From Thioalkalivibrio sp. ALJ24 (GTDB taxonomy: Bacteria; Pseudomonadota; Gammaproteobacteria; Ectothiorhodospirales; Ectothiorhodospiraceae), in contig NZ_KB898729.1 in the NCBI RefSeq assembly GCF_000377785.1, positions 1 to 64,000 of the forward strand: a DNA stretch of 64,000 nucleotides, in the 5' to 3' direction. The position numbers and the translations under genes are program-made. This document shows positions 8,402 through 31,954 of the stretch, piece after piece. The notes below the pieces were generated by a model, which did not search any database, was not told where the DNA came from, and saw nothing but the letters and a program-made list of their open reading frames with translations. Numbering within the stretch: position 1 is the first letter of the stretch; every line of letters starts with the position of its first letter.

Positions 8402-9991
8402 ATGCCCTACCTTGTTCACGACGCCATACTGGCGCATGCCGATTCCACGCCGCACGCCCCGGCCCTGCGCCACCGCGATTCGGTGGAGGATTACGCGTCG
8501 CTGGCCGCCAGCGTCGAAGCCGCAGGAGCGCGTCTGCTGGGCGCCGACATCGAGCATCAGGAACGCGTGGCCGTGTATCTGGACAAGCGCCCGGAGACGG
8601 TCCACGCGCTGTTCGGCGCCACGCTGGCCGGAGCCGCCTTCGTACCGGTGAACCCGTTGCTGAAGGCCGAACAGGTCACGCACATCCTGCGTGACTGCAA
8701 CGTACGCATCCTGGTCACCTCGGCGGATCGGCTGTCGGGTCTGCTGGACGCACTGCCGGCCTGTCCGGATCTGCACACCGTGCTCGTGGTGGGCGAGGTG
8801 CCGGAGGATGCCGAGGCCGGTCATGTCCGGATCGAGCCATGGGCGTCCGATGCCCCCGCGCCGGATGTCCGTCCCCATCGGGTGATCGATACGGACATGG
8901 CGGCGATCCTGTATACCTCCGGCAGCACCGGACGGCCGAAAGGGGTGGTGCTCTCGCACCGCAACATGGCGGCCGGCGCCGAGAGCGTGGCGACCTATCT
9001 GGACAACCGGCCCGACGACCGCCTGCTGGCGGTGCTCCCGTTCAGCTTTGATTACGGCCTGAGCCAGCTGACCACGGCCTTTCGGGTGGGTGCCGAGGCG
9101 GTGCTGCTCAACTACCTGCTGCCGCGCGACGTGATCCGCGCGGTGGCCCGTTACGGCATTACCGGGCTGGCGGCGGTGCCGCCGCTTTGGATCCAGCTCG
9201 CCCGGCTCGACTGGCCGGAAGAAGCGCAGCAGTCCCTGCGCTACATCACCAACTCGGGCGGGGCGATGCCGCAGGAAACCCTGGCCGGGCTGCGCAGCCA
9301 GCTGCCGCGGACCGACTGCGTGCTGATGTACGGCCTGACCGAGGCATTCCGCTCCACCTATCTGCCCCCTTCCGAACTGGACCGGCGCCCGGGTTCCATG
9401 GGCCGTGCGATCCCCAATGCCCGGATCGAGGTGGTGCGCGAGGATGGCAGCCCGTGCGCCCCGGGCGAGCCGGGCGAGCTGGTGCATCGCGGGGCGCTGG
9501 TGGCACAGGGCTACTGGAACGACCCGGAACGCACGGCGGAGCGCTTTCGGCCGGCGCCGGGGCAGCCTTCCGGCATGCCCCTGCCGGAGATCGCCGTGTG
9601 GTCGGGCGACACGGTGCGCATGGACGAAGACGGCTATCTCTACTTTGTCGGGCGCCGCGACGAGATGATCAAGACCTCCGGCTACCGGGTCAGCCCCAAC
9701 GAGGTGGAGGAAGCGGTCTACGCCACCGGCCTGGTGGCGGAGGCCGCGGCGTTCGGGGTGGCCCATCCGACGCTGGGCGAGGGCATCGTGCTGGTCGGGC
9801 AGCCGCAGGGCGAAGAAGCAACCGCGGAGGCCCTGATCGACGCCCTGCGCCCGCACCTGCCGGGGTTCATGCTGCCGGCCCATGTTCACCTGCGCGCCGA
9901 GCCGCTGCCGCGCAATGCCAACGGCAAGATCGACCGCAAGGCCCTGGCCGGCGAATTCGGGGACATTTTCCAGCAAGGAGAAACAGCGTGA
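8402..9991 (+). CDS. Acyl-CoA ligase (AMP-forming), exosortase A-associated
   Basis: A 529-residue ANL-superfamily adenylating enzyme. It activates a carboxylic or amino acid as acyl-AMP and transfers it to a thiol. The ATG at 8402 gives MPYLVHDAILAHAD, a normal start for the family; the longer frame to 8321 is an Arg/Cys-rich leader unlike the family. Core motifs are all present: YTSGSTGRPKGVVLSH (P-loop), YGLTEAFRS, the hinge DGYLYFVGRRDEMIKTSGYRVSPNEVEE region, and the catalytic lysine in NANGKIDRKAL near the C-terminus. It overlaps the decarboxylase by GTGA, the pairing typical of exosortase A loci where the two are taken to process one unknown substrate. No acyl-carrier protein gene is visible nearby. 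The substrate is unknown. Confidence 0.9.
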   Translation: MPYLVHDAILAHADSTPHAPALRHRDSVEDYASLAASVEAAGARLLGADIEHQERVAVYLDKRPETVHALFGATLAGAAFVPVNPLLKAEQVTHILRDCNVRILVTSADRLSGLLDALPACPDLHTVLVVGEVPEDAEAGHVRIEPWASDAPAPDVRPHRVIDTDMAAILYTSGSTGRPKGVVLSHRNMAAGAESVATYLDNRPDDRLLAVLPFSFDYGLSQLTTAFRVGAEAVLLNYLLPRDVIRAVARYGITGLAAVPPLWIQLARLDWPEEAQQSLRYITNSGGAMPQETLAGLRSQLPRTDCVLMYGLTEAFRSTYLPPSELDRRPGSMGRAIPNARIEVVREDGSPCAPGEPGELVHRGALVAQGYWNDPERTAERFRPAPGQPSGMPLPEIAVWSGDTVRMDEDGYLYFVGRRDEMIKTSGYRVSPNEVEEAVYATGLVAEAAAFGVAHPTLGEGIVLVGQPQGEEATAEALIDALRPHLPGFMLPAHVHLRAEPLPRNANGKIDRKALAGEFGDIFQQGETA

Positions 9992-11223
9992 CGGACTCGC
10001 GCCCGGAACACAGCCCGATCGATCATTTTTCCGTGGTGGACGATTGCCTGCAGATCGGCGACCGGTCGCTGACGGATCTGGCGGCACGCGTGGGGCAGAC
10101 CCCGTTCTATGCCTACGACCGCGCGCTGATGACCCGGCGCGTGGAGCATCTGCGCGCCAGCCTGCCGGACGGCATCGCCCTGCACTATGCGATCAAGGCC
10201 AACCCGATGCCGGCGGTGGTCCGGCACATGGCCGGCCTGGTGGACGGGCTGGATGTGGCCTCCAGCCGAGAGATGCAGGTGGCGCTGGACAGCGGCACGG
10301 CGCCGGGCGATATCAGCTTTGCCGGGCCGGGCAAGTCGGTGGCCGAGCTGGAGGCGGCGGTGGCGGCCGGGATCACCATCAACGTGGAATCGCCCACCGA
10401 ACTGGAACGGCTCGGCGCCATCGCCGAACGCACGGGCCGGCTCCCGCAGGTCGCGGTGCGTGTCAATCCGGACTTCGAGCTGAAAAGCTCCGGCATGCGC
10501 ATGAGCGGCGGCCCCAAGGCCTTCGGCGTGGATGCCGAACGCGTACCCGAACTGCTGGCCCGCATCGGCGAACTGGGCCTGCATTTTCGCGGGTTTCACA
10601 TCTTTTCCGGCTCGCAGAACCTGCGCCCCGAAACCCTGATCGAGGCGCAGTCCCGGACCTTCGAGCTGGCCCTGCGCCTGGCCGACGCCGCCCCGGGGCC
10701 GGTGGAGATGCTGAACATCGGGGGCGGCTTCGGCATCCCGTATTTCCCGGGGGAGAAGCCGCTGGAGCTGGGACCCATCGGTGAACATCTGGCCCGCGAA
10801 CTGCCCGCCGTGCGCGAGCGCCTGCCCCGCGCGGAGATCATCCTGGAACTGGGCCGTTACCTGGTCGGCGAGGCCGGCATCTACGTGGCCGAGGTGCTGG
10901 ACCGCAAGGAATCACGCGGGCAGGTCTTCCTGGTCACCAACGGCGGCCTGCACCATCACCTCGCCGCGTCGGGCAACTTTGGTCAGGTGATCCGCAAGAA
11001 CTACCCGGTGGCAGTCGGCAACCGCGTACAGGGCACCGAGCGCGAGGTGGTGAACGTGGTCGGCCCGCTGTGCACGCCGCTGGATGTGCTGGCGCAGCAG
11101 ATGGAGATGGCGCGCGCCGACGTGGGCGACCTGATCGTGGTCTTCCAGTCCGGCGCCTACGGCTTTACCGCGAGCCCCACGCGCTTTCTGAGCCACCCGG
11201 AACCGGTGGAGGTTCTGGTCTGA
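9988..11223 (+). CDS. PLP-dependent decarboxylase, exosortase A-associated
   Basis: A 411-residue fold-III PLP enzyme of the diaminopimelate/ornithine decarboxylase superfamily. The start is GTG at 9988, overlapping the ligase stop (GTGA) and preceded by AAGGAG at 9975-9980. The PLP lysine is in LHYAIKANP (K70). Other site motifs are HIFSGSQN, NIGGGFGIPYF (phosphate loop), ELGRYLVGEAG, TNGGLHHH and the dimer-partner cysteine in VGPLCTPLD (about residue 362), followed by FQSGAYGFTASP. It matches the exosortase A system-associated decarboxylase type. Coupling to the ligase suggests the two make an amine-bearing acyl or amino group for the polysaccharide; this is inference. A paralogue with a damaged active site lies at 24976-26214. 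Confidence 0.92.
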   Translation: MTDSRPEHSPIDHFSVVDDCLQIGDRSLTDLAARVGQTPFYAYDRALMTRRVEHLRASLPDGIALHYAIKANPMPAVVRHMAGLVDGLDVASSREMQVALDSGTAPGDISFAGPGKSVAELEAAVAAGITINVESPTELERLGAIAERTGRLPQVAVRVNPDFELKSSGMRMSGGPKAFGVDAERVPELLARIGELGLHFRGFHIFSGSQNLRPETLIEAQSRTFELALRLADAAPGPVEMLNIGGGFGIPYFPGEKPLELGPIGEHLARELPAVRERLPRAEIILELGRYLVGEAGIYVAEVLDRKESRGQVFLVTNGGLHHHLAASGNFGQVIRKNYPVAVGNRVQGTEREVVNVVGPLCTPLDVLAQQMEMARADVGDLIVVFQSGAYGFTASPTRFLSHPEPVEVLV

Positions 11224-20090: not shown

Positions 20091-23000
20091 ATGAACGCCA
20101 ACGCCCTCCACCACGAACCGCTTTCACTGCGCACCTGCGCATTGTGGGCCTGGCTGGCGCTGGGGGCGGCGTTCTATCTGACGCTGCTGCCGTTCGAGTT
20201 CGGCAATGTCTCCCTCGAGACGGCGTGGGAGACCTACCGCAACATGAGCCTGACCGGGCCGGGCACGAGCGGTCGCCAGCAGTTCATGGCGAACGTGCTG
20301 ATGTTCATGCCGCTGGGGTTCTTCTGGACCGCGTGGCTGACGCATGGTCGCCGCAGTGGTCTGCGGGCCGGGGGCGTCTTCCTGTTCGTGGCCGCCCTCG
20401 GTCTGGCGGTGACGGCCACGGTCGAGTTCTTCCAGGTCTGGCTGCCGTACCGCCATCCGGCCGGGGCCGATATCGCCGGCAACTTCTCCGGTGCAGTGGC
20501 CGGTTCGCTCGCCTGGCTGGCGCTGCGCAATCCGATGCTGCGCTGGCGTCGGGCGCTGGAGGCGTCGGGCGCGCGGACCTTGGGCATGGCGCTGCTCCTC
20601 TATGCGGGGCTGTACGTCACCGTCGGCCTGATCCCGTTTGATTTTGTGCTCTCGCAGGAAGAACTGCGCGCGCGGCTGGCCTCCGACTCGTGGGGCTGGT
20701 GGCTGGCCGCGGATGCCTGCACCAGCGGGATCCGCTGCTACAGCTGGCTGACGCTGGAGCTGGTGGTCAGCATCCCGGTGGGACTGCTGCTGGCGTGGTG
20801 GCTGCAGCGCCGGGGCCTGCCCCTGCTGGCGGCCGGCCTGCCGTTGGCGCTGCTGGGGGCCGCGCTGTTGGAGGTGGCGAACCTGTTCACCCTGTCGGGC
20901 ATCGTCGAGGGCCGCTCGGTGCTGTTGCGATTCCTCGGGCTGGGGGCCGGGCTTCTGCTGTGGCGGCGGCTGCCGGACCACCCGCACGGGGTGATCCGCT
21001 CGCTGCAGCAGGCCGCGTCTGCGGTGCTGGTCGTGGCCATACCGGCGTATGCCCTGCTGCTGTTGGCGCTCAACCACGGCTTTGCGGATTTTCACTTCGA
21101 TCTGGAAGCGGCGCACGCGCAATGGCGCGAACTGAACCTGTGGCCGTTCTACTACCACTACTTCGTCGACGAGATCCACGCACTGCGCAGCACGGCGCTG
21201 CATCTCGCCATGTATGCGCCGCTGGGCGCGCTGGTCTGGGTCTGGCAGCTCAACCGCGCCTGGTCGACGGCCGGGCTGTACTGGCTCGCGGTGGCCGGTG
21301 GGGTCCTGCTGGCCCTGGTCGTGGAACTGACCAAGCTCTTCGTGGACGGCGCCCGACCGGACCCCGCCAGCCTCGTGCTGGCCGGGCTGGCGGCCTGGGT
21401 GGTTGCGGCGGCGCTTCGCTGGCTCGAACAGGCGAGCGGTGCCGCCGCTTCGAACCGGCACGATGCGGGCGAGCCCGCGCAGGCACCGGCTGCTGGACCG
21501 ACCCCGGACCCCTCCGGCCGGATGCGGCAAGCCCTGGGCGGCCTGGTCGCACTCACCACCCTGGGGGTGGCGGCGACCTGGCCGGTGGCGGCACCGGCCA
21601 TGGTGGCGGGACTGCTGGGCTACGCGGTGTTGTTGTGGTGGCGGCCGCAGGCATGGCTGCTGGTCATCCCGGTCGTGCTGGCGACGCTGGACCTGACGCT
21701 GTACACCGGCCGGCTGTTCGTCTCCGAACTGGACCTGTTCCTGCTGATGACAGTGGCGGTGGCCCTGTGGCACGGCGTCCACCCGGGTCATTCCGGTCCC
21801 CTGCTGCCACGCGCCGTTCGCTGGCCGCTGGTGCTGCTGACGGGTTCCACGCTGGTGGCGCTGGCGATCGCCCTGTATCCGCCCGGCGCATGGGATCCGG
21901 GCCAGGCGGTGCACTTTGCCCATGACTGGAATGCCCTGCGTGTCGCCAAGGGACTCCTGTGGACCGTGATGCTGCTGGCGGTCCTGCGTGTTGCGCCGAT
22001 ACCGGTGCGCGAGCAGGTGGAGCGCTGGTTCCTGCCCGGGGTTGCGCTGGCCCTGCTGGCCAAGGTGGCCTATGTGATCCGCGAGCGTGCGACCTATCCG
22101 GGTCTGCTGGATTTCGACAGCGGCTATCGCCTGTCGGGGCTGTTCTCGGAGATGCAGGCCGGCGGGCCGAGTATCGAGACCTTCCTGGTACTGGCCCTGC
22201 CGCTGGCACTGATCTGGTGCTGGCGGCAGCGGCCGGGGATGCTGCTCGCGGGCTCGCTGCTGTTCGGCGCGGGGGCCGCCTATGCGGTGGCGATGACCTA
22301 TTCGCGTGGCGGGTATCTCGGCTTCGGGGTGGCCCTGGCGATCCTGCTGGCCGGCCTGTTGCTGGCGGGCGTGCGGCGGCGGGGGACGCTGCGGCCCGCG
22401 TGGCTGGCCGGGGGGCTGCTGCCCGTGGCGGCAGCAGTTCTGGTCGCGGGCACGACCCTGGGCGGCTTCGGCGAGCAGCGCCTGGGGCAGATCGAAGATG
22501 ACCTGCAGAGCCGGCTGCAGCACTGGCAGGCGGGCCTGGAACTGCCCGGCGGGGGGCCGCTTGCGCCGATCCTGGGGCGCGGAATGGGCAGCTTTCCCGA
22601 CCACTATCGCACCGGCAACGTGGAGGGGCGGCTGCCGGCCAACCTGGCCTTCGTCCGGGATGATGAGGGTTCACAACTGCAGCTGGGCGGGGGCGATTCG
22701 CTGTTCGTGAATCAGCGTGTACGTCTGCCACGCCAGGGCCCGCTGACGCTGGAGATCGAGGCGGCCGGCGCGCAGGCAAACGGGTTCCGCGTATTCGTAT
22801 GCGAGAAGCCCATCCGGCATTCCTTCGAGTGCCGCAGTCAGGGCCTGCAGCTGTCCGGCGACGGCGCGCCCGAGACCCTGGAATGGGAGTTCGATCTGGA
22901 GGGGCTGGAGGATCGGTCCTGGCCCTTCGAGCGGGGACTGGTATTTTCGATCAGCGTGGATCGCGGACTCGACGGCATCATGGAGTTCGAGCATGTGCAG

Positions 23001-23390
23001 ATCCGCGACGCCGACGGTCACGGCTATCTGGACAACGCCGATTTCGAGCAGCGGAGCCGCCACTGGTATTTCATCACCGATCATCTCTGGCCCTGGCGCA
23101 TCGAGAACCAGTGGCTGGAGATCTATTTCGATCAGGGCTGGCTCGGCGTACTGGCCTTTGTCTGGCTCACCCTGGCGGCCATCCTGTTCCTGCTGCGGCG
23201 TGCGATCCGCGGCGACGCCCTGGCGCTGGGAGCCGCGTCCGCAACGGGCGGGGCACTGGCGGTCGGGCTGTTCAGCACGATCTTCTTTTCACCCCGGATC
23301 GCGCTGCTGTTCTACCTGACGCTGCTGCTGGGGGTGGCCGCGGCGCACACGCGCGCATCGCGTGACGGCGGAACTGATACCATTCGCTGA
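20091..23390 (+). CDS. VanZ / O-antigen-ligase giant membrane fusion
   Basis: A 1,099-residue multispanning protein. Residues 1-~430 contain two VanZ-like blocks: FYLTLLPFEFGN, FMANVLMFMPLGFFW and VEFFQVWLPYRHPAGADIAGNF, repeated weakly as VGLIPFDFVL and LHLAMYAPLGALVWVW...VVELTKLFVDGARPDPASL. After an Ala/Pro/Gly linker (~460-485) come Wzy/WaaL-like helices (GYRLSGLFSEMQAGGPSIET, AMTYSRGGYLGFGVAL). A ~180-residue periplasmic loop (LGRGMGSFPDHYR to RIENQWLEIYF) contains a beta-rich, carbohydrate-binding-like insert (LTLEIEAAGAQANGFRVFV). It should act at the periplasmic face on lipid-linked glycan. It is the second ligase/polymerase-type gene of this locus. Confidence 0.82.
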   Translation: MNANALHHEPLSLRTCALWAWLALGAAFYLTLLPFEFGNVSLETAWETYRNMSLTGPGTSGRQQFMANVLMFMPLGFFWTAWLTHGRRSGLRAGGVFLFVAALGLAVTATVEFFQVWLPYRHPAGADIAGNFSGAVAGSLAWLALRNPMLRWRRALEASGARTLGMALLLYAGLYVTVGLIPFDFVLSQEELRARLASDSWGWWLAADACTSGIRCYSWLTLELVVSIPVGLLLAWWLQRRGLPLLAAGLPLALLGAALLEVANLFTLSGIVEGRSVLLRFLGLGAGLLLWRRLPDHPHGVIRSLQQAASAVLVVAIPAYALLLLALNHGFADFHFDLEAAHAQWRELNLWPFYYHYFVDEIHALRSTALHLAMYAPLGALVWVWQLNRAWSTAGLYWLAVAGGVLLALVVELTKLFVDGARPDPASLVLAGLAAWVVAAALRWLEQASGAAASNRHDAGEPAQAPAAGPTPDPSGRMRQALGGLVALTTLGVAATWPVAAPAMVAGLLGYAVLLWWRPQAWLLVIPVVLATLDLTLYTGRLFVSELDLFLLMTVAVALWHGVHPGHSGPLLPRAVRWPLVLLTGSTLVALAIALYPPGAWDPGQAVHFAHDWNALRVAKGLLWTVMLLAVLRVAPIPVREQVERWFLPGVALALLAKVAYVIRERATYPGLLDFDSGYRLSGLFSEMQAGGPSIETFLVLALPLALIWCWRQRPGMLLAGSLLFGAGAAYAVAMTYSRGGYLGFGVALAILLAGLLLAGVRRRGTLRPAWLAGGLLPVAAAVLVAGTTLGGFGEQRLGQIEDDLQSRLQHWQAGLELPGGGPLAPILGRGMGSFPDHYRTGNVEGRLPANLAFVRDDEGSQLQLGGGDSLFVNQRVRLPRQGPLTLEIEAAGAQANGFRVFVCEKPIRHSFECRSQGLQLSGDGAPETLEWEFDLEGLEDRSWPFERGLVFSISVDRGLDGIMEFEHVQIRDADGHGYLDNADFEQRSRHWYFITDHLWPWRIENQWLEIYFDQGWLGVLAFVWLTLAAILFLLRRAIRGDALALGAASATGGALAVGLFSTIFFSPRIALLFYLTLLLGVAAAHTRASRDGGTDTIR

Positions 23391-23417
23391 GTGTGGATAG
23401 CGAGCCAGGACCCTGTG

Positions 23418-24140
23418 ATGGGCGAAGTGATAGACCGATTCGACGAGCATCTGCCGGAACTGGCTCGTTTCGTGGAAGACGCCGACTCGCTGGAAAAGGG
23501 GCTTGAGCGGCTTGCCTCGCTGGTCGGGCATGCGATGAGCTGCGAGCGCTGCTCGATCATGCTGGTGAAACCCGATCCCGATTCGGGTGAGCCGCGACTG
23601 CGGGTGCAGGCGCATCACGGGAACCTTGCGGACCGGGCTTACGAGGAGCACCAGCCCCTGGGCCAAGGGATCTCGGGCCAGGTTTCGGCGTCGGGCAAGG
23701 GGATGCTCATCCGCGATCTGCACCGGACGGCTTACGCGGACGCGGCCAGACGTGAACCCGAAGACCGGCCGGTCGATATCATTGTGGTCCCGATCCGCCT
23801 CGAGGGCGAGGTGATCGGCGTGATCAATCTCGACTCCCCCGCAGACGGACGTCGTCTCTCCACGGAGGATCTGCGCATCGCCTCCATCCTCGCGCTGGTG
23901 GTGTCCCGGTCCATCCTGATCCACCGGCTGAAAGGCCTGTTGCGCACCAGCTTCACGCAGATGGCCCTTGCGCGTCAGCCCGACGCGCTCAACGGACCGA
24001 TCACGCATGAACCCCGGCGTGTCGCCCGCCTGCTGGCGCAGACCATGTATGACGAGATGCAGCGGGCGGGGTTTTCCGACGACCATGTGCTGACCGCCGC
24101 GACCGAGCTGATCAGCCACGTGAGCGAGGCGCGCAAATGA
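23418..24140 (+). CDS. GAF-domain protein
   Basis: A 240-residue protein with one GAF domain (about residues 35-175: LASLVGHAMSCERCSIMLVKPD, GQGISGQVSASGKGMLIRDL, VVPIRLEGEVIGVINLDSP) followed by a helical C-terminal tail. The ATG at 23418 has AGGA at 23407-23410 seven bases upstream and is preferred over a GTG at 23391. No output domain (kinase, GGDEF, HTH) is present, so it may sense a small molecule and act through a partner, as with other stand-alone GAF proteins beside polysaccharide genes. It starts 27 bases after the ligase fusion stop, so it is likely co-transcribed. Confidence 0.8.
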   Translation: MGEVIDRFDEHLPELARFVEDADSLEKGLERLASLVGHAMSCERCSIMLVKPDPDSGEPRLRVQAHHGNLADRAYEEHQPLGQGISGQVSASGKGMLIRDLHRTAYADAARREPEDRPVDIIVVPIRLEGEVIGVINLDSPADGRRLSTEDLRIASILALVVSRSILIHRLKGLLRTSFTQMALARQPDALNGPITHEPRRVARLLAQTMYDEMQRAGFSDDHVLTAATELISHVSEARK

Positions 24141-24180
24141 GGCGGCATCCGCGCGCATGGATGCCCCGGAGGCCTGCGGA

Positions 24181-24924
24181 ATGAACCAGCCGGAGGACTT
24201 CGAACGGCGCTGGCGGCGTCGCTTTGTCGAACGCGGTGCGCAGCTGGATGACGACGCCGGAATCGCCGGCTGGACCCCGACGGGACTGAACAGCCGGGTG
24301 CGGCAGTTTCGGCACTGGTGGGGACAGGCAGACCCGGTACCGGGGCGCTGGCTGGATATCGGCTGCGGCGCCGGCACCTACACCCGGATGCTGCAGGCCG
24401 AGGGATACGAGGCCGTGGGCATCGACTACTCCTCGCCTTCGGTCGGCAAGGCGCGGGATCGCAGCCCGGAGGGCATCGGCTGGCTGGCGGGCGACATCCA
24501 CCGCCTGCCATTTCCGGAGGCGGTCGCCGACGGCATCCTCTGCTTCGGGGTGATGCAGGCGATCGTACGACCGGACACCGCGCTGGCCGAAATGGCGCGT
24601 GTGCTGCGGCCCGGCGGGGAGCTCTGGGTCGATGCGCTGAACGCCGACTGCCTGCCGACCCGGATCCGGGAGGCGCGTCGGCGGCGGGCCGGTCGCCCGC
24701 CCCATCTGCGTTACGACAGCCGCAGCGGACTGCTGCAGGCGGCCGCAGAAGCGGGTCTGGAACGCATCTCCGCGCACTGGATGCCCCTGGTGCCGGGGCG
24801 CGTGGCCTTCCTGCAGCCCCTGTTCGAGAGCGGGCCGGGGCGCGGGTTGCTGCATCTCGCGCCTCCCCTCGGCTCGGCCCTGAGCCACTCCTTCATCCTG
24901 CGCCTGCGACGCCCCGCGGACTGA
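24181..24924 (+). CDS. Class I SAM-dependent methyltransferase
   Basis: A 247-residue methyltransferase (Methyltransf_11 type). The ATG at 24181 follows GGAGG (24168-24172) with 8-base spacing, better than the ATG at 24157. Motif I is WLDIGCGAGTYTRML, the acidic end of the second strand is VGIDYSSPSVGKA, and the post-motif is WLAGDIHRLPFPEAVADGILCFGVMQ with MARVLRPGGELWVDAL. Substrate not readable: a sugar hydroxyl or amino group of the repeat is a fair guess from context. Convergent with the next gene at 24976, with about 50 bases between them and no clear terminator hairpin seen. Confidence 0.87.
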   Translation: MNQPEDFERRWRRRFVERGAQLDDDAGIAGWTPTGLNSRVRQFRHWWGQADPVPGRWLDIGCGAGTYTRMLQAEGYEAVGIDYSSPSVGKARDRSPEGIGWLAGDIHRLPFPEAVADGILCFGVMQAIVRPDTALAEMARVLRPGGELWVDALNADCLPTRIREARRRRAGRPPHLRYDSRSGLLQAAAEAGLERISAHWMPLVPGRVAFLQPLFESGPGRGLLHLAPPLGSALSHSFILRLRRPAD

Positions 24925-24975: not shown

Positions 24976-26214
24976 CTACAGCACGATCTCGGCGGGCAGC
25001 GGGCGATCCTGGAACCCGGCCGGGCTGGCGGTCAGGCCGTAAGCCCCGGACAGGAAGACCGCAATCAGATCGCCGGGCTCGGCATGTGGCAACGGTACCC
25101 GCGCTGCCAGACAGTCGTGCGGCGAATCCAGCGGGCCCAGAATGCTGACGGTCTCGGTGTCCGGGTTGTTGACGCGGGTAGCGATGGCCACCGGCGGGTT
25201 GCTTCGCCCATCCGCCCCGGGGAGGCCGGAAGCCGTCTGACGGTGGTGGGTGCCGCCGTCCGTGAGCAGGAAGGCCTCGCCGCCGGAAACCTTCCGCTCG
25301 ACCACCCGGGTCAGATAGACGCCGGACTCTCCCACCAGGTAACGCCCCAGTTCGAGAACCAGATGGGTTTCGGGCCATTGCTCCTGCAGATCCCTTGCCA
25401 GTTGCCCGAGGCCCTGCGCGACGACGGCGGAATCCAGGGGCCGGTCTTCGGCGCTGGAGGGGATGCCGAAACCACCGGCCAGTGTGACGAATTCCGGGAT
25501 GATGCCGGCCGGGCACAGACTGCGGACCTGATCGACTGCGTGCCTGTGGGCCTCGGCAATCCGGTCGGCCCGGAGGTTGGCGGAGCCGATACGGACCTCG
25601 AAACCGGCAATGTAGACCGGCAGGTGACGGGCTTCTTCCAGCAGTTCCGGAACGGCGCTGGCGTCGATACCCAGGGGCGGGAAATCGGAATCGGACAGCC
25701 ACCGGTCGGACCGGAGATACCGTTCGGGACGGACATGAATGCTGACCGGGATACGGTGGCCGGCGGTACGGGCCTCGTCGGCGACCCGGCGCAGCTGGCC
25801 GGCGGATTCGATACCGAGCACGCATCCGGACTGTGCCGCGGCCTCCAGGTCCTCGGTCGTCTTGGCCGGTCCGGCAAACGAGATCCGGGACGGCGAGATG
25901 CCGGCCTTGCGGGCGCGCAGCAGCTCTCCGGCCGAGACGACCCCCATCCCGTCCAGCCATGGCACCATGCGGTGCAGAAGCTGCGAGTACGGATTGGCCC
26001 GCACCGCGTAGTGGAGGCGGACACGCGCGGGCAACTGGCTGCGCAGCGCCTGAATCCGCTCACCGGTGTCTTCGGCATCGTAGACGTACAGCGGCGTGCC
26101 GTGCTGTTCGACAAGGGAGTGTGCAGGATGCCCGGCGATCAACAACTCGCCCTGATGGTCGCATCCCAGTCCAGGGGGCCAGTAGTACGGGCCGGGTTCG
26201 TGTTCGCGTGTCAT
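24976..26214 (-). CDS. PLP decarboxylase-fold protein with altered active site
   Basis: A 412-residue paralogue of the decarboxylase at 9988-11223, starting at MTREHEPGPYYWPP. The fold-III signature is preserved (GTPLYVYDAED, LAGGFGIPSS, ELGRYLVGESGVYL, TDGGTHHRQTA, FLSGAYGLTASP), but the residues that define chemistry are changed. The PLP lysine position reads HYAVRANP, an arginine (residue 72) from codon CGG. The Cys of the GPLC motif is Asp (GPLDSPHD, residue 363), and the HIFSGSQ-like segment is GFEVRIGSAN without the His. It is unlikely to form an internal aldimine, so it is a probable pseudoenzyme, regulatory subunit or binder of the product. Gene is intact; domain length is normal. Confidence 0.85.
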   Translation of the reverse strand: MTREHEPGPYYWPPGLGCDHQGELLIAGHPAHSLVEQHGTPLYVYDAEDTGERIQALRSQLPARVRLHYAVRANPYSQLLHRMVPWLDGMGVVSAGELLRARKAGISPSRISFAGPAKTTEDLEAAAQSGCVLGIESAGQLRRVADEARTAGHRIPVSIHVRPERYLRSDRWLSDSDFPPLGIDASAVPELLEEARHLPVYIAGFEVRIGSANLRADRIAEAHRHAVDQVRSLCPAGIIPEFVTLAGGFGIPSSAEDRPLDSAVVAQGLGQLARDLQEQWPETHLVLELGRYLVGESGVYLTRVVERKVSGGEAFLLTDGGTHHRQTASGLPGADGRSNPPVAIATRVNNPDTETVSILGPLDSPHDCLAARVPLPHAEPGDLIAVFLSGAYGLTASPAGFQDRPLPAEIVL

Positions 26215-26728
26215 GGTTGCCTGCCCCCTGTGCTGAAGATGCCGCAGCTGATCTTGCCGCGCGCGGCTGAACGCGTCCAACCGCAGAGCGCGCCAGACAG
26301 GTGTCGGATTCTTTTACAATCGCCCGCACCCGAATCCGCGAAGAGGATGAAACACCAAAATTTCCCCGGCATGATCCGATAGTTACACGTGCCCGAAAAA
26401 TATGGCGCCTTTCTTGCTTCCCATGAAATGAGCGTTTGCGCCCTGATGCTAGGCAACAGCCAGCGGGCGCGATAACATGGAATGAGTTCTTTTTGAAGAG
26501 CGGACAACGTCGGGCAACAACCTGAGACGCTGGATGCTCGGGGCCGCAACGGCCGGCGAACAGCCGATGGGTGATTCATCCGTTATCCGGTGGGGTGACA
26601 TCGAGCCTGCTAAAATTTAGAAATAACGGTTGGTTACCGTGTATCTCCGAAATTGCGGCTCGCGCTGGTGCTTTCGGGGCCTCGGTACGGAAGGAAACAA
26701 TGCCGGGGACGGACCTGGAGCAGAAGAC
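26215..26728. other. 514-bp leader/intergenic region
   Basis: This long gap separates the altered decarboxylase from the secreted CTPGFWKN protein. It contains one sigma-54 type motif (26403-26418). It also contains a short open stretch at 26534-26620 (29 codons; MLGAATAGEQPMGDSS...) preceded in frame by NNLRRW, faintly like the Tat-style leader of the next gene, with no clear ribosome-binding site. Otherwise nothing was recognised. It is more A/T-rich than the neighbouring genes. Confidence 0.4.
26403..26418 (+). promoter_or_regulatory. Sigma-54 (-24/-12) promoter candidate
   Basis: TGGCGC-N5-TTGCT has the diagnostic GG-N10-GC spacing of RpoN promoters and differs from the TGGCAC-N5-TTGCW consensus at one position. 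It points toward the secreted-protein gene 311 bases downstream. In exosortase A genomes, EPS and PEP-CTERM genes are often under the RpoN-dependent regulator PrsR, which supports but does not prove a role here. Confidence 0.5.
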
Positions 26729-27466
26729 ATGAACGACGAACACGACCAAGACCCACGCCACAGCCAGAAGGGTGATGAGCGGCCCACCGCGTCGGTGGAT
26801 CGAGATCAGGCCTCTGCCGCCCCCCGCAACCCGGCCCGGCGGCGCCTGGCTACGGCCGGTCTGGGCGGGGCGATGCTGGTCACGCTGCCAGCAAAATCGG
26901 TATGGGGCAATCAGGGCCGATGCTCGCTGTCCGGGGAGATCTTCTCTGCCAATGTCTCCGATATCGATCACGAGTGCACCAAGGGCCAGGGCTGCACCCC
27001 CGGGTTCTGGAAGAACAACACCGAGGCCTGGGACTGCACCGGCTTCGACCCGGGGCAATGCATCGAGCGGAACGAGGACGGCACCTGCGCGGTGTGGGAC
27101 GCCTATGGCGCCGGCACCCGTTTCGACGCTGTCTTCCACAATAGCCCCACCTGCGCCCCTCCCTACGCCACGTTGATGGAGGTGCTGCAAACGTGCAAAG
27201 GCCGCGACTTGGATTGGCACGCGGTGGCCGCCATGCTGAACGCCGCCTGCAATTCGGTGGAGTACGGCGCCACCATGGAGGACGTCAAACAGGCCTACTA
27301 CATGGCCCGGACGGATGCCGACACCGATGCGGAGCTGGTCAAGGATGTTTTCGACAACATGAACAACCGCGGCTGCCCCATCGATCGCTGGGGTGACTGT
27401 GAAGATGGCTACACCAAGAACGAAGCAGACCAATGCATTCCGGTGAAGACGTCTCAGTCCGACTAG
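26729..27466 (+). CDS. Secreted 12-Cys protein with CTPGFWKN motif
   Basis: A 245-residue protein starting at MNDEHDQDPRHSQ. Its first ~45 residues are polar and lead to a twin-arginine-like export signal, PARRRLATAGLGGAMLVTLPA (about residues 49-70), ending near KSVWG. The mature part has 12 cysteines and the motif GCTPGFWKNNTEAW, known from many secreted or surface proteins of unknown role. A second feature is the ADADTDAELVKDVFDNMNNRGCP segment followed by WGDCEDGYTKNEADQCIP. No anchor, no PEP-CTERM. It lies directly before the PqqD/HprK-like/nucleotidyltransferase genes, across a MITE-like repeat, so it is a candidate substrate of that system; that link is inference. Confidence 0.7.
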   Translation: MNDEHDQDPRHSQKGDERPTASVDRDQASAAPRNPARRRLATAGLGGAMLVTLPAKSVWGNQGRCSLSGEIFSANVSDIDHECTKGQGCTPGFWKNNTEAWDCTGFDPGQCIERNEDGTCAVWDAYGAGTRFDAVFHNSPTCAPPYATLMEVLQTCKGRDLDWHAVAAMLNAACNSVEYGATMEDVKQAYYMARTDADTDAELVKDVFDNMNNRGCPIDRWGDCEDGYTKNEADQCIPVKTSQSD

Positions 27467-27490
27467 GCGTATCCCCATTGGCTTGTCCGC

Positions 27491-27659
27491 CTAGGGAGAC
27501 ACTGACGGGTTTGGGCGATCGTCGCGAGCGTAGTGGGAGAGTGGCCCCTTTTTTCGGTCTTTCGAGGCGCATAGTGGGGCTATGCGACGAGAAAGAGCGG
27601 AAAAGGGGCCACTCTCCCATACGCGCAGCAGATCAGTCCTGAATCCGACAGGCTCCTAG
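27491..27659. repeat. MITE-like palindromic element
   Basis: A 169-bp non-coding element bounded by CTAG at 27491-27494 and 27656-27659 (possible 4-bp target duplication or target site). The outer ends are imperfect inverted repeats (CTAGGGAGACACTGACGGG against the complement CTAGGAGCCTGTCGGATTC, with gaps). Inside, 27535-27552 (GGGAGAGTGGCCCCTTTT) pairs perfectly with 27601-27618, and the loop closes with a second perfect stem CGCATAG / CTATGCG (27568-27574, 27580-27586). The transcript would form one long hairpin. It could also dampen read-through from the secreted-protein gene into the modification genes. No transposase is present. Confidence 0.6.
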
Positions 27660-27679
27660 AACCGGCATGAGGCAACGGA

Positions 27680-27985
27680 TTGGTATCAGGCCCTGACCCC
27701 GCAGCACCCACCGGCCTCTGGCAGACAGCGGCCCTGCCGGCGGCGCATATTCGCGAATGGGCGCAACGCTGGGTGGTCTACGACCACCGCACCGGCGAGA
27801 CGCACCTGCTGGAAGGGGCGGCCGGTGCGCTCTTCCAATGGCTGCATCAGACCCCCAGGAACCAGCGAGAGCTGATCGAGAAGTGCATCCAGGACTGGGG
27901 CCACGAGGTGGAAGATGCCGAGGCCTTCATCGAACAACTTCTGGCCGAGCTGCGCCGCCGGCAGTTGGTTTGGGAGCGGAGCTAG
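27680..27985 (+). CDS. PqqD-like protein of HprK-related system
   Basis: A 101-residue PqqD-family protein, resembling the PqqD-like proteins paired with HprK-related kinase A. PqqD-type proteins are winged-helix RiPP recognition elements that bind a leader peptide and present it to modifying enzymes. The visible family pattern is RWVVYDHRTGETHLLEGAAGALFQWL followed by a helical stretch and EAFIEQLLAELRRRQLV. I take the TTG at 27680, with GAGG at 27669-27672 seven bases upstream; no ATG fits. It ends three bases before the kinase gene. Confidence 0.8.
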   Translation: MVSGPDPAAPTGLWQTAALPAAHIREWAQRWVVYDHRTGETHLLEGAAGALFQWLHQTPRNQRELIEKCIQDWGHEVEDAEAFIEQLLAELRRRQLVWERS

Positions 27986-27988
27986 CCC

Positions 27989-28894
27989 GTGGCCGTTGCC
28001 GTTTCTGCCGATCTTCCCCGGATACTGCGCACGCAGGGCGCGCCTCTGGAGATTGGGCCTTTTATCGTACGGCTGAGCTCCCGGCTTCCGGCCATTGCCG
28101 AGAGCATCGGTTTGCACTACACCGAGCAGTTGCTGCCGGCAGACACCCCCTTTAGCGATTTCCACGTGCGCCTGGACCGGGCACCGGGGGTTCGCGGCGT
28201 ATGGCGGCCGCAGGCGCGCTTCTATCTCGATGGCAGTTCCCCCTTCAAGCCACTGCCCCTAAGCCAGGCCTTCCCGCTATTCGAGTGGGGCCTGAACTGG
28301 TGCATTGCCCAGCACGGCCACCACTACCTGATGATCCACGCCGCCGTCGCTGCACGGGACGATCAGGCGCTGATCATGCCCGGCGCGCCGGGGGCGGGGA
28401 AGAGCACGCTGGTGGCCGCGCTGGCGCTCTCCGGCTGGCGGCTGCTGTCAGACGAGTTCGCTCTACTGTCCCTTGAGAATGGCCTGCTTACCCCGCTGCC
28501 GCGCCCGGTCAGTCTCAAGAACCAGGCCATCCCTCTGATCCGCGAGCGCTTCCCGGAGGCGGTGGTGGGCCGATCCGCCCATGAAACGACCAAAGGCACC
28601 GTGGCCCACATGAAACCACCGTCGGCGAGCCTCGCTCGGGCCCAGGCACCGGCCCGGCCGGCGTGGCTGGTTTTCCCGCGTTTCGCCCCAGGTGGCGACG
28701 ACACCCTGCGCGAGATGCCCAAGGCCCACGCCCTGTTGACCCTCGCCGATGCCGCCTTCAACTACAGCGTGCTGGGCGGTCAGGGCTTCGAGGCGGCTGC
28801 CGAGCTGGTGGACCGCTGCGCCTGCGCCCAGCTGGACTACGCTGATCTGGACCGGAGCCTGTCCGCCCTGAACGCCCTGCCCGACGCCCCATGA
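27989..28894 (+). CDS. HprK-related kinase A-type protein
   Basis: A 301-residue protein related to the HPr serine kinase/phosphorylase C-terminal domain. Visible are LMIHAAVAARDDQALIMPGAPGAGKST with the Walker A loop at residues 132-140, and GWRLLSDEFALLSLENG, the equivalent of the acidic segment of HprK. The rest (ARPAWLVFPRFAPGGDDTL, LDRCACAQLDYADLDRS) matches the HprK-related kinase A group. There is no HPr or PTS gene near it. Related HprK-like enzymes (PadeK type) phosphorylate peptide natural-product precursors, so a protein or peptide substrate presented by the adjacent PqqD-like protein is likely. Start GTG at 27989; the nucleotidyltransferase overlaps its end by four bases. Confidence 0.82.
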   Translation: MAVAVSADLPRILRTQGAPLEIGPFIVRLSSRLPAIAESIGLHYTEQLLPADTPFSDFHVRLDRAPGVRGVWRPQARFYLDGSSPFKPLPLSQAFPLFEWGLNWCIAQHGHHYLMIHAAVAARDDQALIMPGAPGAGKSTLVAALALSGWRLLSDEFALLSLENGLLTPLPRPVSLKNQAIPLIRERFPEAVVGRSAHETTKGTVAHMKPPSASLARAQAPARPAWLVFPRFAPGGDDTLREMPKAHALLTLADAAFNYSVLGGQGFEAAAELVDRCACAQLDYADLDRSLSALNALPDAP

Positions 28895-29997
28895 TGCCGC
28901 GAGCGCTCGATCACCTGCTGACCGCACTGACCCAACCCGCCGCCGTCGAATCGCTGCAGCTGAGCGACTGGGACCCGCTCTTGCGGGTGGCGCGGGCCGC
29001 CTCACTGGAGGCACGACTGCATGCCCTGCTCGAAGAGCAAGGGCTGCTCGCCCGGGTGCCAGCGCGCCCCCGGCGCCACCTGGCGGCCGCCGGCAAGGTG
29101 GCGGCCCAACAACACCAGCGCATGCGCTGGGAGGTGGAGCAAGTACACGAGGCATTGGGCGCCCGAGAGGCACCGGTGGTGATCCTCAAGGGGGCCGCCT
29201 ACCTTATGGCCGATCTGCCCTGTGCCCCCGGCCGGCTTTTTGCGGACCTGGACATCATGGTGCCGCGCCGAGCACTGGAGAGCACCGAACGGGCCCTGTT
29301 CGCCCGCGGCTGGCTGGCCCAGGGGCACGATGAGTACGACCAGACCTACTACCGGCGCTGGATGCACGAACTGCCGCCGCTCACCCATATCCGCCGCAAA
29401 AGCGTTCTGGACGTTCACCACACCATCCTGCCACCCACCGCAAGACTCGCCCCGGACCCGGACAAGCTATTCGCCGCAGCCCGTCCGCTGAAGGGCTGGT
29501 GCAACCTGTTAGTACTGGCTCCGGCGGACATGGTGTTACACAGCGCTACCCACCTGTTTCACGACGGCGAGCTGGAGAACGGCTTGCGCGACCTGGCCGA
29601 CCTGGATGCGCTGCTGCGGCACTTTGCAGAGCGGGACTCGGGCTTCTGGGAACAGCTCACCGCGCGCGCCTTCGAGATGGATCTGGCGCGTCCGCTGTAC
29701 TACGCGCTGCGCTACGGTCGCGAGTTTCTGGCGACACCGATCCCCGACACGGTCTATGCGCGCCTTTCCCCGGCGCGGCCCGCCACCCCGTTGCTGGTGG
29801 TGATGGATGCCCTTTTCCGGCGTGGTCTCAAGCCCCATCACTGGATATGCGATGGCCCATTATCCGGCACCGCCCGCTGGTGTTTGTACGTGCGCTCGCA
29901 TTATCTGCGCATGCCCCTGCGCCTGCTGCTGCCGCACCTGGTGCGCAAGGCGATCAAGGAGCGCCGTGCTGGCAAGAGGGAACAGCCCGACCCTTGA
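28891..29997 (+). CDS. Uncharacterised nucleotidyltransferase family protein
   Basis: A 368-residue protein of the uncharacterised nucleotidyltransferase family (Pfam NTP_transf_5). The sequence has the expected helical N-terminus, VVILKGAAYLMADLP, then the metal-binding GRLFADLDIMVPRRALE and a long helical C-terminus including LDVHHTILPPTARL, DMVLHSATHLFHDGELENGLRDLADLD and SHYLRMPLRLLLPHLVRKAI. It overlaps the kinase gene by ATGATG/ATGA at 28891-28894, so all three genes form one tight unit. Similar genes sit beside PqqD-like and HprK-like genes in lasso-peptide and related clusters, but their reaction is not settled. No transport gene is in the cassette. Confidence 0.8.
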   Translation: MMPRALDHLLTALTQPAAVESLQLSDWDPLLRVARAASLEARLHALLEEQGLLARVPARPRRHLAAAGKVAAQQHQRMRWEVEQVHEALGAREAPVVILKGAAYLMADLPCAPGRLFADLDIMVPRRALESTERALFARGWLAQGHDEYDQTYYRRWMHELPPLTHIRRKSVLDVHHTILPPTARLAPDPDKLFAAARPLKGWCNLLVLAPADMVLHSATHLFHDGELENGLRDLADLDALLRHFAERDSGFWEQLTARAFEMDLARPLYYALRYGREFLATPIPDTVYARLSPARPATPLLVVMDALFRRGLKPHHWICDGPLSGTARWCLYVRSHYLRMPLRLLLPHLVRKAIKERRAGKREQPDP

Positions 29998-31126: not shown

Positions 31127-31954
31127 TTACTGGTCCCGGTAACGCGCCAGCAGGGGCCGGATGCGATCCGCCGGGATCGCATAAGTGATGCCGCTGGGCT
31201 GGCCGATGGCCGCCTCGCGCCCGCCCTGCACGAAGACCTGGTTGATCACCCCGACAACCTCTCCCGAGTCCATGCGAAACAACGGACTCCCGCTGTTGCC
31301 GGGATAGGCGGTCGCGTCCAGCTGGAACACCATCGGAGGATCGTTGCGCAGCGCCCGAATACGTCGCTCGTCCAGCTCATCCGAATGGCGGGCCGGTATG
31401 ACCATCGGGGTGCGGGCGGAAACGGTCGCCCGATGCGTTGCCGGGTAAAGCCCCAGAATCATGCCGATGGGGTAGCCGGTGAAGGCAACCTCCTCTCCGA
31501 CCCGCACCGCATCCGATGAACCCAGAGGCAGCGCGGGCAGCGACGACCCGTCAATCTCCAGCAGGGCAAGATCATGATCGACGGACCGGGCCACGACCTC
31601 CCCCGAATGGACTTCGGTATCCCGGCCCTGGCCGCTGACCACCACCAGGCGTTCCCGCCGCTCGCTGTCCAGGTCCTCGGGGATCACATGATGATTGGTG
31701 ACCACCAGCCGGCCGTTGCCGACCACGAAGCCCGTTCCCTTGTATTCCGCACGGGGACTGCGGGTCGCCTGATAAGTACCGACCGCGACGATCGAGGGCT
31801 CGACCCGATCGACCGTATCTGGCAGATCCCCGGACTGGACGGCCCCTGACAGGAACGCGAACACCGCTCCCAGCACGAACGACACCACCCATCGCGCCAG
31901 GCGATGGCGGCCGCCAGCCGGCGGCTGGAACACGGCGTAGCGATACGGGCTCAT
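31127..31954 (-). CDS. Trypsin-like serine protease, membrane-anchored or secreted
   Basis: A 275-residue S1-type protease of the HtrA/Deg fold without PDZ domain. The N-terminus has a hydrophobic segment (residues 21-39, RWVVSFVLGAVFAFLSGAV), a signal anchor or Sec signal, so the domain acts in the periplasm. The catalytic triad is visible: His88/89 in VVTNHHVI, Asp128 in HDLALLEID and Ser221 in AYPGNSGSPLF. The S1 pocket strand is GITYAIPADRI. It follows the hot-dog protein on the same strand order (upstream), separated by about 90 bases, and seems to have its own promoter. HtrA itself also has PDZ domains, so this is a minimal relative. Confidence 0.85.
   Translation of the reverse strand: MSPYRYAVFQPPAGGRHRLARWVVSFVLGAVFAFLSGAVQSGDLPDTVDRVEPSIVAVGTYQATRSPRAEYKGTGFVVGNGRLVVTNHHVIPEDLDSERRERLVVVSGQGRDTEVHSGEVVARSVDHDLALLEIDGSSLPALPLGSSDAVRVGEEVAFTGYPIGMILGLYPATHRATVSARTPMVIPARHSDELDERRIRALRNDPPMVFQLDATAYPGNSGSPLFRMDSGEVVGVINQVFVQGGREAAIGQPSGITYAIPADRIRPLLARYRDQ

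Follow-up and report, generated by a model that had tools for sequence, protein, structure and literature searches.

HPr-rel-A loci carry a conserved Tat-like exported protein, the proposed client of a PqqD-guided kinase and nucleotidyltransferase

We analyzed a 64,000-nucleotide stretch of the genome of Thioalkalivibrio sp. ALJ24 (contig NZ_KB898729.1, positions 1 to 64,000), hereafter the window, in which a gene for an exported protein with a twin-arginine translocation (Tat)-like signal is followed on the forward strand by three enzyme genes. These code for PqqD_rel_X, a peptide chaperone resembling the recognition elements (RREs) of ribosomally synthesized and post-translationally modified peptides (RiPPs), an HprK-related kinase A and an NTP_transf_5 nucleotidyltransferase. 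A first-pass annotation had drawn up this order of a 12-Cys Tat-like protein and three enzymes, and the profile scores bear it out; it had also taken the cassette to be new, whereas the enzyme trio is already named in NCBIfam as the HPr-rel-A system, a functional orphan. The new part is the conserved Tat-like protein that adjoins the trio, which we call the client, together with the leader logic that we propose for it. We somewhat favor the view that the HPr-rel-A trio works under RRE guidance and modifies this dedicated Tat-exported protein ahead of its export. The view builds on the linkage of client and trio, a leader and Ser segment common to the clients, a coupling of PqqD and leader divergence, intact enzyme motifs, an enrichment of sigma-54 sites and co-occurrence with exosortases.

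All three enzymes are recognized well above threshold by family models: PqqD_rel_X (27680..27985, with a TTG start) scores 68.9 bits against TIGR04353 (cut-off 35) and 27.4 against PF05402 (cut-off 23.4), the kinase (27989..28894) 405.8 bits against TIGR04352 (cut-off 200), and the nucleotidyltransferase (28891..29997) 206 bits against PF14907 (cut-off 31.2). HPr-rel-A membership means that TIGR04352 and TIGR04353 are both above their curated cut-offs and, by our own definition, that an NTP_transf_5 gene adjoins them, as is the case here. Of the three genes earlier described as tightly overlapping, those for the kinase and the nucleotidyltransferase do overlap, by 4 nt, while those for PqqD and the kinase are 3 nt apart. 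The kinase retains H117, the P-loop K138 and D155-E156, which line up with the H, K and D-D of the HPr kinase 1jb1 (a weak match, E 0.019) and show no variation in two alignments of the family, one with 13 members and one with 15. The K-G-x-A and D-x-D motifs of the nucleotidyltransferase are likewise intact, their residues being present in 144-145 of 145 family rows. A PDB sequence search with the nucleotidyltransferase gave no matches, and one with the PqqD protein just three, weak and unrelated. The kinase model is above its cut-off in 61 of 398 sampled genomes of the phylum; our searches of the open-licence literature turned up no paper that gives the substrate of this kinase or that names the system or a CTPGFWK-type protein, and just one, unrelated, that brings together twin-arginine signals and RREs.

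The association of client and trio was surveyed in 158 loci including the window, or 152 once identical kinases were removed. TIGR04352 is above cut-off in 20 of 58 related genomes, counting that of the window, and the 19 others were used together with one locus below the cut-off (G015); the 61 genomes above cut-off among the 398 of the phylum contributed 57 of the 60 others (G132, G078 and G227 were left out); and the best 80 of 543 relatives in named genomes were also taken as loci. Open reading frames (ORFs) were called on the basis of codon usage, as learned from the window and the fetched loci. A client profile built from 15 Tat-like proteins encoded upstream of PqqD was then iterated over all 24,392 ORFs of these loci. 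Within 4 kb of the kinase, PqqD is found in 145 of the 158 loci and the nucleotidyltransferase in 144, and the gene ahead of PqqD codes for a Tat-like protein, of the CTPGFWKN type or not, in most of the first loci. The client profile picks out 147 of the 24,392 ORFs, which fall in 141 of the 158 loci, corresponding to 135 of the 152 non-redundant ones. Of these hits, 145 lie on the kinase's strand at most about 4.1 kb away, and the two on the opposite strand are an adjacent gene (L187) and a short stray (L111). The upstream hits number 128 in 127 loci, with PqqD standing between client and kinase in 120, and the 17 downstream hits, in 13 loci, are all behind the nucleotidyltransferase, with the first client frame starting 88-174 nt past its end in 12 loci and overlapping it in one; a second client is present in 4 of them. 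Among the 17 non-redundant loci without a profile hit, a Tat-like pattern search recovered another Tat-like protein upstream in 9. A third client type (RRRALMLGAVGASAIVSIRPALAQ...CEIPVP) is encoded 4-668 nt before the kinase frame in eight loci (L215-L217 and L219-L223), and another Tat-like protein 1,550 nt before the kinase and adjoining the nucleotidyltransferase in L051, the below-cut-off locus. The third type reads RRRALMLGAVGASAIVSIRPALAQ...CEIPVPDPGRAG.

Because the profile iteration saw only ORFs near kinases, we also searched a draw of 185 whole gammaproteobacterial genomes, in which the kinase is present in 19 and the client profile (A2) matches 28. A client match occurs in 18 of the 19 genomes with the kinase as against 10 of the 166 without it (Fisher p 5e-17), and each of the 18 has one at a distance of under 1 kb from the match to the kinase. 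Removal of the four genomes that had contributed rows to the profile (G000, G044, G051 and G057) leaves 14 of 15 kinase genomes, as against the same 10 of 166 (p 1e-13), a comparison in which the named loci in the profile may still stem from species that are also in the draw. In G559, the 19th kinase genome, the iterated profile picked up a Tat-like gene located upstream of PqqD. The earlier suggestion that enzymes and exported protein form one system is thus upheld by the co-occurrence in the surveyed loci, whether by profile or by pattern, and in whole genomes; a lack of co-occurrence elsewhere, named at first pass as a refutation, is not what we see.

The window's client (26729..27466), the proposed substrate, is a protein of 245 aa with 12 Cys and a CTPGFWKN motif, and at E 0.01 neither Pfam nor NCBIfam holds a match to it. 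Its twin-arginine signal, RRRLATAGLGGAMLVTLPAKSVWG, covers residues 37-60 (26837..26908; the cleavage point is guessed) and begins with the RR at residues 37-38. The Tat consensus is RRxFLK; in the clients the RR is present in all 145 aligned rows together with an uncharged hydrophobic stretch, and the window's genome codes for TatC (232 bits). The missing transporter remarked on at first pass would be accounted for by this Tat-type signal and the genomic TatC. Behind the leader lies the proposed modification segment, CSLSGEIFSANVS (residues 65-77, 26921..26959), with a conserved Cys/Ser pattern and low model confidence; all 12 Cys are at residue 65 or later, and the first Tyr is residue 126. 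Across the family a Cys follows the leader in 140 of 145 rows. The main group of clients, group A, displays the motif C-x-x-S-G-x-x-S-G-N-x-S there (with G/A at one position), and across the whole family its two main Ser positions hold Ser in 119 of 141 rows and 118 of 139 rows. In a hand-picked set of 43 group-A sequences (the window's and 42 of 79 listed), R37, R38, C65, S68, S73 and C83 are invariant, with N75 and S77 conserved in at least 90%.

An AlphaFold2 model of the client (mean predicted local distance difference test score, pLDDT, 73.3) assigns low confidence and no secondary structure to residues 1-83, and a confident, mostly helical domain to residues ~90-212, with a pLDDT of ~90 or more across most of 91-210. 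The folded mature domain, delimited in the predicted structure as residues 90-240 (26996..27448), is helical with two short hairpins. As modeled, the client thus consists of a flexible tag and a flexible Ser segment ahead of a folded body. A Foldseek search of the PDB with this model gave no matches at E 0.001 or better (best E 0.6), and a plasmid search with the client none. Nor did we come across a model of the client family in Pfam or NCBIfam, where 56 representatives gave just weak Tat or stray models. The client ends in ...QCIPVKTSQSD, with no PEP-CTERM tail (PEP motif, transmembrane segment and basic tail). The 12 Cys and CTPGFWKN, first singled out as hallmarks, were dropped as such for the family, given that 117 of 143 partners have 2-6 Cys and that many mature parts are SPGYW-like or unrelated.

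We then asked which enzyme diverges with which part of the client in 106 of the 152 loci, having dropped those that lacked an enzyme or client hit and those whose client had an unusual leader or a short mature region, by means of correlations tested with 500 permutations. With kinase and nucleotidyltransferase controlled, PqqD divergence correlates with that of the leader (0.164, reached in 0/500 permutations) but not with the Ser segment (397/500) or the mature part (145/500). The divergence of the kinase follows that of the Ser segment (0.445) and the mature part (0.506; 0/500 each) and, weakly, the leader (0.123, 2/500), and nucleotidyltransferase divergence tracks the leader (0.279) and the mature part (0.131) but not the Ser segment. 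In a group-A subset of 58 loci chosen by motif, the PqqD-leader correlation is 0.253 (0/500). This coupling, seen at the level of sequence divergence, fits the recognition of a leader by an RRE. Moreover, in four mutually related loci with two full-length clients the leader is the best-kept part of the protein, since the RR-to-C stretch is identical at 28/30, 20/27, 16/26 and 19/28 positions and the remainder at 54/124, 53/155, 47/142 and 52/150.

These observations suggest that the export tag of the client also guides its modifying enzymes before the protein leaves the cell. A more specific proposal, which we hold tentatively, is that the twin-arginine signal doubles as a RiPP-type leader, which the PqqD-like RRE reads, directing a Ser kinase and a transferase that caps the phosphate to the residues right after it, and that only the modified folded protein passes through Tat. 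We infer the following course. The client would be synthesized with its twin-arginine signal, which PqqD_rel_X might bind as RREs of RiPP systems bind leaders, thereby shielding it from the Tat pore and presenting the flexible segment right behind it. HprK-related kinase A would phosphorylate Ser in this segment, with S68 and S73 the best candidates in group A, and NTP_transf_5 could then extend the phosphate with a sugar or nucleotide. Once folded and modified, the protein would leave via Tat and its signal would be cleaved, making the modified N-terminal end the start of a mature cell-surface protein, which may serve the sigma-54-controlled exopolysaccharide/exosortase program described below. 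We propose Ser phosphorylation behind the Tat signal, its capping and Tat export on the basis of the intact kinase and transferase motifs and of the precedent of LppK, PadeK and PsmN. LppK, of the linear polyphosphorylated peptide (LPP) systems, phosphorylates Ser3 of the leader-cut core, with an S3A change abolishing phosphorylation, and the LPP nucleoside triphosphate (NTP) transferase was inactive in the test host, according to excerpts of PMC13381572. The excerpted PMC9266682 describes PadeK as modifying a C-terminal Ser and PsmN as required for the addition of one or two hexoses to phospho-Ser.

Several findings weigh against modification of the client by HPr-rel-A as outlined here. Four strong profile hits (G051:C37, G508, G526 and G512) consist of the mature domain alone, with no cassette within 1.5 kb. 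The loci were picked via the kinase, and with those from named genomes being the best 80 of 543, close relatives are over-represented. No Tat-like neighbor, by profile or pattern, is found in 8 of the 152 loci (L138, L162, L189, L190, L203, L210, L225 and L228); 6 of these also have no PqqD profile hit and L228 is at a contig edge, but L138 and L225 do carry PqqD. Client groups B and C are without SGNxS and no Ser column is universal, while the NCBI Tat models match few of the 56 clients, and these weakly (TIGR01409 three, TIGR02811 two). Within group A the kinase correlations are weak, both with the Ser segment (0.076, 25/500) and with the mature part (0.097, 34/500), and the nucleotidyltransferase-leader correlation (0.465) exceeds that of PqqD and leader, which the proposed mechanism does not predict. 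Finally, 8 of 16 listed Thioalkalivibrio loci, mostly with another client type, have no sigma-54 site within 600 nt.

The other 8 of those 16 do have a relaxed sigma-54 site. In the window a promoter site of the sigma-54 (-24/-12) type, TGGCGCCTTTCTTGCT (26403..26418, forward strand, an exact TGGCGC-N5-TTGCT), precedes the client gene by 326 nt; as the window holds 3 matches with at most one mismatch against 5.9 expected by chance, the single site proves little. Upstream of 135 client genes, there are 17 strict sites where 0.9 are expected and 59 relaxed ones where 4.65 are expected, the control being random windows from the same loci, coding DNA included. The locus itself is of an exosortase-A-associated, polysaccharide type, with matches to TIGR03097, TIGR03098 and TIGR03099 and genes for a nucleotide-sugar dehydrogenase, a UDP-GlcNAc epimerase and a deacetylase. 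In the draw, an exosortase (PF09721, E 0.001) is encoded by 17 of the 19 kinase genomes as against 44 of the 166 others (p 1e-7), and in the window's genome the exosortase and PrsK genes are both on contig 9 (C9), off the window's contig. The sigma-54 and exopolysaccharide links surmised from the single locus are supported, the former with the caveat that not every lineage shares it. A sigma-54-dependent PEP-CTERM gene acts in floc formation with PrsK/PrsR, as excerpted from PMC9850573.

This setting lends itself to a different explanation, namely that the enzymes act on another molecule, such as a sugar, a lipid or an exopolysaccharide precursor, and that the Tat-like protein merely shares their operon and program, for instance as a periplasmic or surface partner of the product. 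The polysaccharide genes around the cassette and the exosortases of the kinase genomes speak for it. We nevertheless judge it unlikely, as an RRE of the PqqD type implies that the client is a peptide, and the PqqD-leader coupling exceeds what the kinase and nucleotidyltransferase explain. Further, the leader is the part best kept in two-client loci, PqqD too is gone from 6 of the 8 clientless loci, and the linkage holds in the loci of groups B and C.

A somewhat less probable alternative is that the trio constitutes a Tat-proofreading chaperone set, comparable to the chaperones of redox enzymes, with the kinase phosphorylating PqqD or the later-cleaved signal for release and the exported protein remaining unmodified. 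That conservation and PqqD coupling center on the signal, and that nucleotidyltransferase divergence tracks the leader too, would be expected of such a set; that the kinase diverges in step with the Ser segment and the mature part over all 106 loci would not. Nor does it sit well with the invariance of S68 and S73, behind the leader, in the 43 picked group-A clients, or with known relatives that modify a core Ser (excerpts of PMC13381572 and PMC9266682), and the nucleotidyltransferase has no evident role in mere proofreading. Lastly, a true RiPP pathway, in which the long client is cut beyond its signal and the modified N-terminal piece is a small-peptide product, strikes us as quite improbable: precursors of up to 200 aa in LPP systems (excerpts of PMC13381572) and the short Tat-like proteins of L262, L263 and L264, whose genes have PqqD- or HprK-like neighbors, lend it some color, but a confidently modeled domain follows the segment, all Cys lie from residue 65 on, and the only peptidase among the scanned neighbors is trypsin/HtrA-like (31127-31954).

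If modification of the exported client ahead of Tat is indeed what HPr-rel-A performs, it would join Tat export to RRE-guided modification and carry the chemistry of phospho-RiPPs over from peptides to folded proteins of the cell surface. Such a modification would be widespread among proteobacteria, and the leader/core logic would here govern whole proteins instead of peptides. It would also add a component to the sigma-54/exosortase program linked to floc formation (excerpts of PMC9850573). With a conserved client family adjoining the enzymes, the question of what the kinase modifies becomes directly testable on named residues.

Other relatives of the client turned up in the draw, away from HPr-rel-A cassettes. 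The client mature domain is also found inside larger frames with no cassette nearby, of 479 codons in G051:C37 (L243) and 1352 codons in G512:C6 (L247). Among the weak hits that cover the leader, those of G605:C15, G588 and G528:C1 have a below-cut-off HprK-like kinase close by, with a PqqD-like gene as well in G605 and G588. Neither gene was seen near the weak hits in G466 and G464 (11 kb read) or G536 and G551 (1.5 kb flanks), that in G536 being an ordinary Tat ferredoxin-type protein; the neighborhood reading covered the weak hits other than G605:C4 and G528:C60. Short Tat-like proteins of 63-153 codons (RRxF[IV]KKAAY.APVVLTL type) are encoded in L262 (5434-5706), L263 (5729-6187) and L264 (4555-4746 and 6200-6388), near HprK-like kinases below the TIGR04352 cut-off and, in two cases, a PqqD-like gene. 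They possibly represent a wider class, which would follow the same principle if our proposal is right.

Between the client and the enzyme genes of the window is a 97-bp imperfect palindrome (27528..27624), a potential hairpin with arms at 27534-27552 and 27601-27619 (19/19 paired). The client-PqqD gap measures 213 nt here, and extra sequence must sit in it, as the gaps of six close relatives span just 27-67 nt. We rejected the first-pass reading of the palindrome as a miniature inverted-repeat transposable element (MITE), which needs multiple copies, as it has one copy in the genome. Farther upstream is a gene for an S-adenosylmethionine (SAM) methyltransferase (24157..24924, forward strand; a library match), and in 12 of the 15 listed Thioalkalivibrio loci a gene of similar length (244-256 aa, by length comparison alone) comes ahead of the client. 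Before it come genes for a 1099-aa protein with VanZ and O-antigen-ligase-like parts (20091-23390) and a lone GAF-domain protein (23391-24140); length-matched counterparts of both precede the client in 6 of the 7 other loci of the same client type, and the seventh is truncated by the contig end. The window also codes for two pyridoxal phosphate (PLP) decarboxylases of the exosortase-A type (cut-off 478), one at 9988-11220 on the forward strand with 623 bits and one on the client's side at 24976-26280 on the reverse strand. With 363 bits, below the cut-off, the latter looks like a diverged paralog.

Among characterized systems, the nearest to the one considered here is that of the LPPs of Bacillota, as presented in excerpts of PMC13381572. 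Both have a discrete RRE, an HprK-like kinase and an NTP transferase, and the excerpted account gives no lasso cyclase for LPP clusters. By analogy, the two would further share leader removal of the signal-peptidase type and a modified Ser near the new N-terminus, which is our proposal for the client; both also lie in polysaccharide loci. In contrast to LPP systems, which going by those excerpts are mostly from Bacillota and have their own type I signal peptidase (SpI), an MsbA-like transporter and a YxxPxVLxHQ leader, the present one belongs to Pseudomonadota and has a Tat-type leader, a folded protein client and sigma-54 sites. A scan of part of the ORFs from 483 to 38982 of the window revealed no SipW-like signal peptidase and no MsbA-like ATP-binding cassette (ABC) transporter, and the N-terminal motif of LPP precursors, YxxPxVLxHQxIxFETxxS, is missing from the client, whose first Tyr comes far later. 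The lasso peptide systems of the paeninodin type (PadeK, ThcoK and PsmK/PsmN; excerpts of PMC9266682) likewise feature an HprK-like kinase, with His-Lys-Asp-Asp in place of the His-Lys-Asp-Glu seen here, and a nucleotidyltransferase acting on phospho-Ser, a nucleotidyltransferase gene being present here too. They differ in that the modified Ser is at the C-terminus, as against the proposed Ser near the N-terminus of the client; as already noted at first pass, neither a lasso cyclase (C) nor a leader protease (B2) is among the window proteins scanned. The PEP-CTERM/exosortase systems have the same type of locus and probably share the sigma-54/PrsK program (excerpts of PMC9850573), but the client is without a C-terminal PEP-CTERM tail and the exosortase gene is on another contig. 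With HPr-rel-A as defined in NCBIfam by TIGR04352 and TIGR04353, along with PF14907, the locus has the same three enzymes in common, and the client is what our analysis adds to it.

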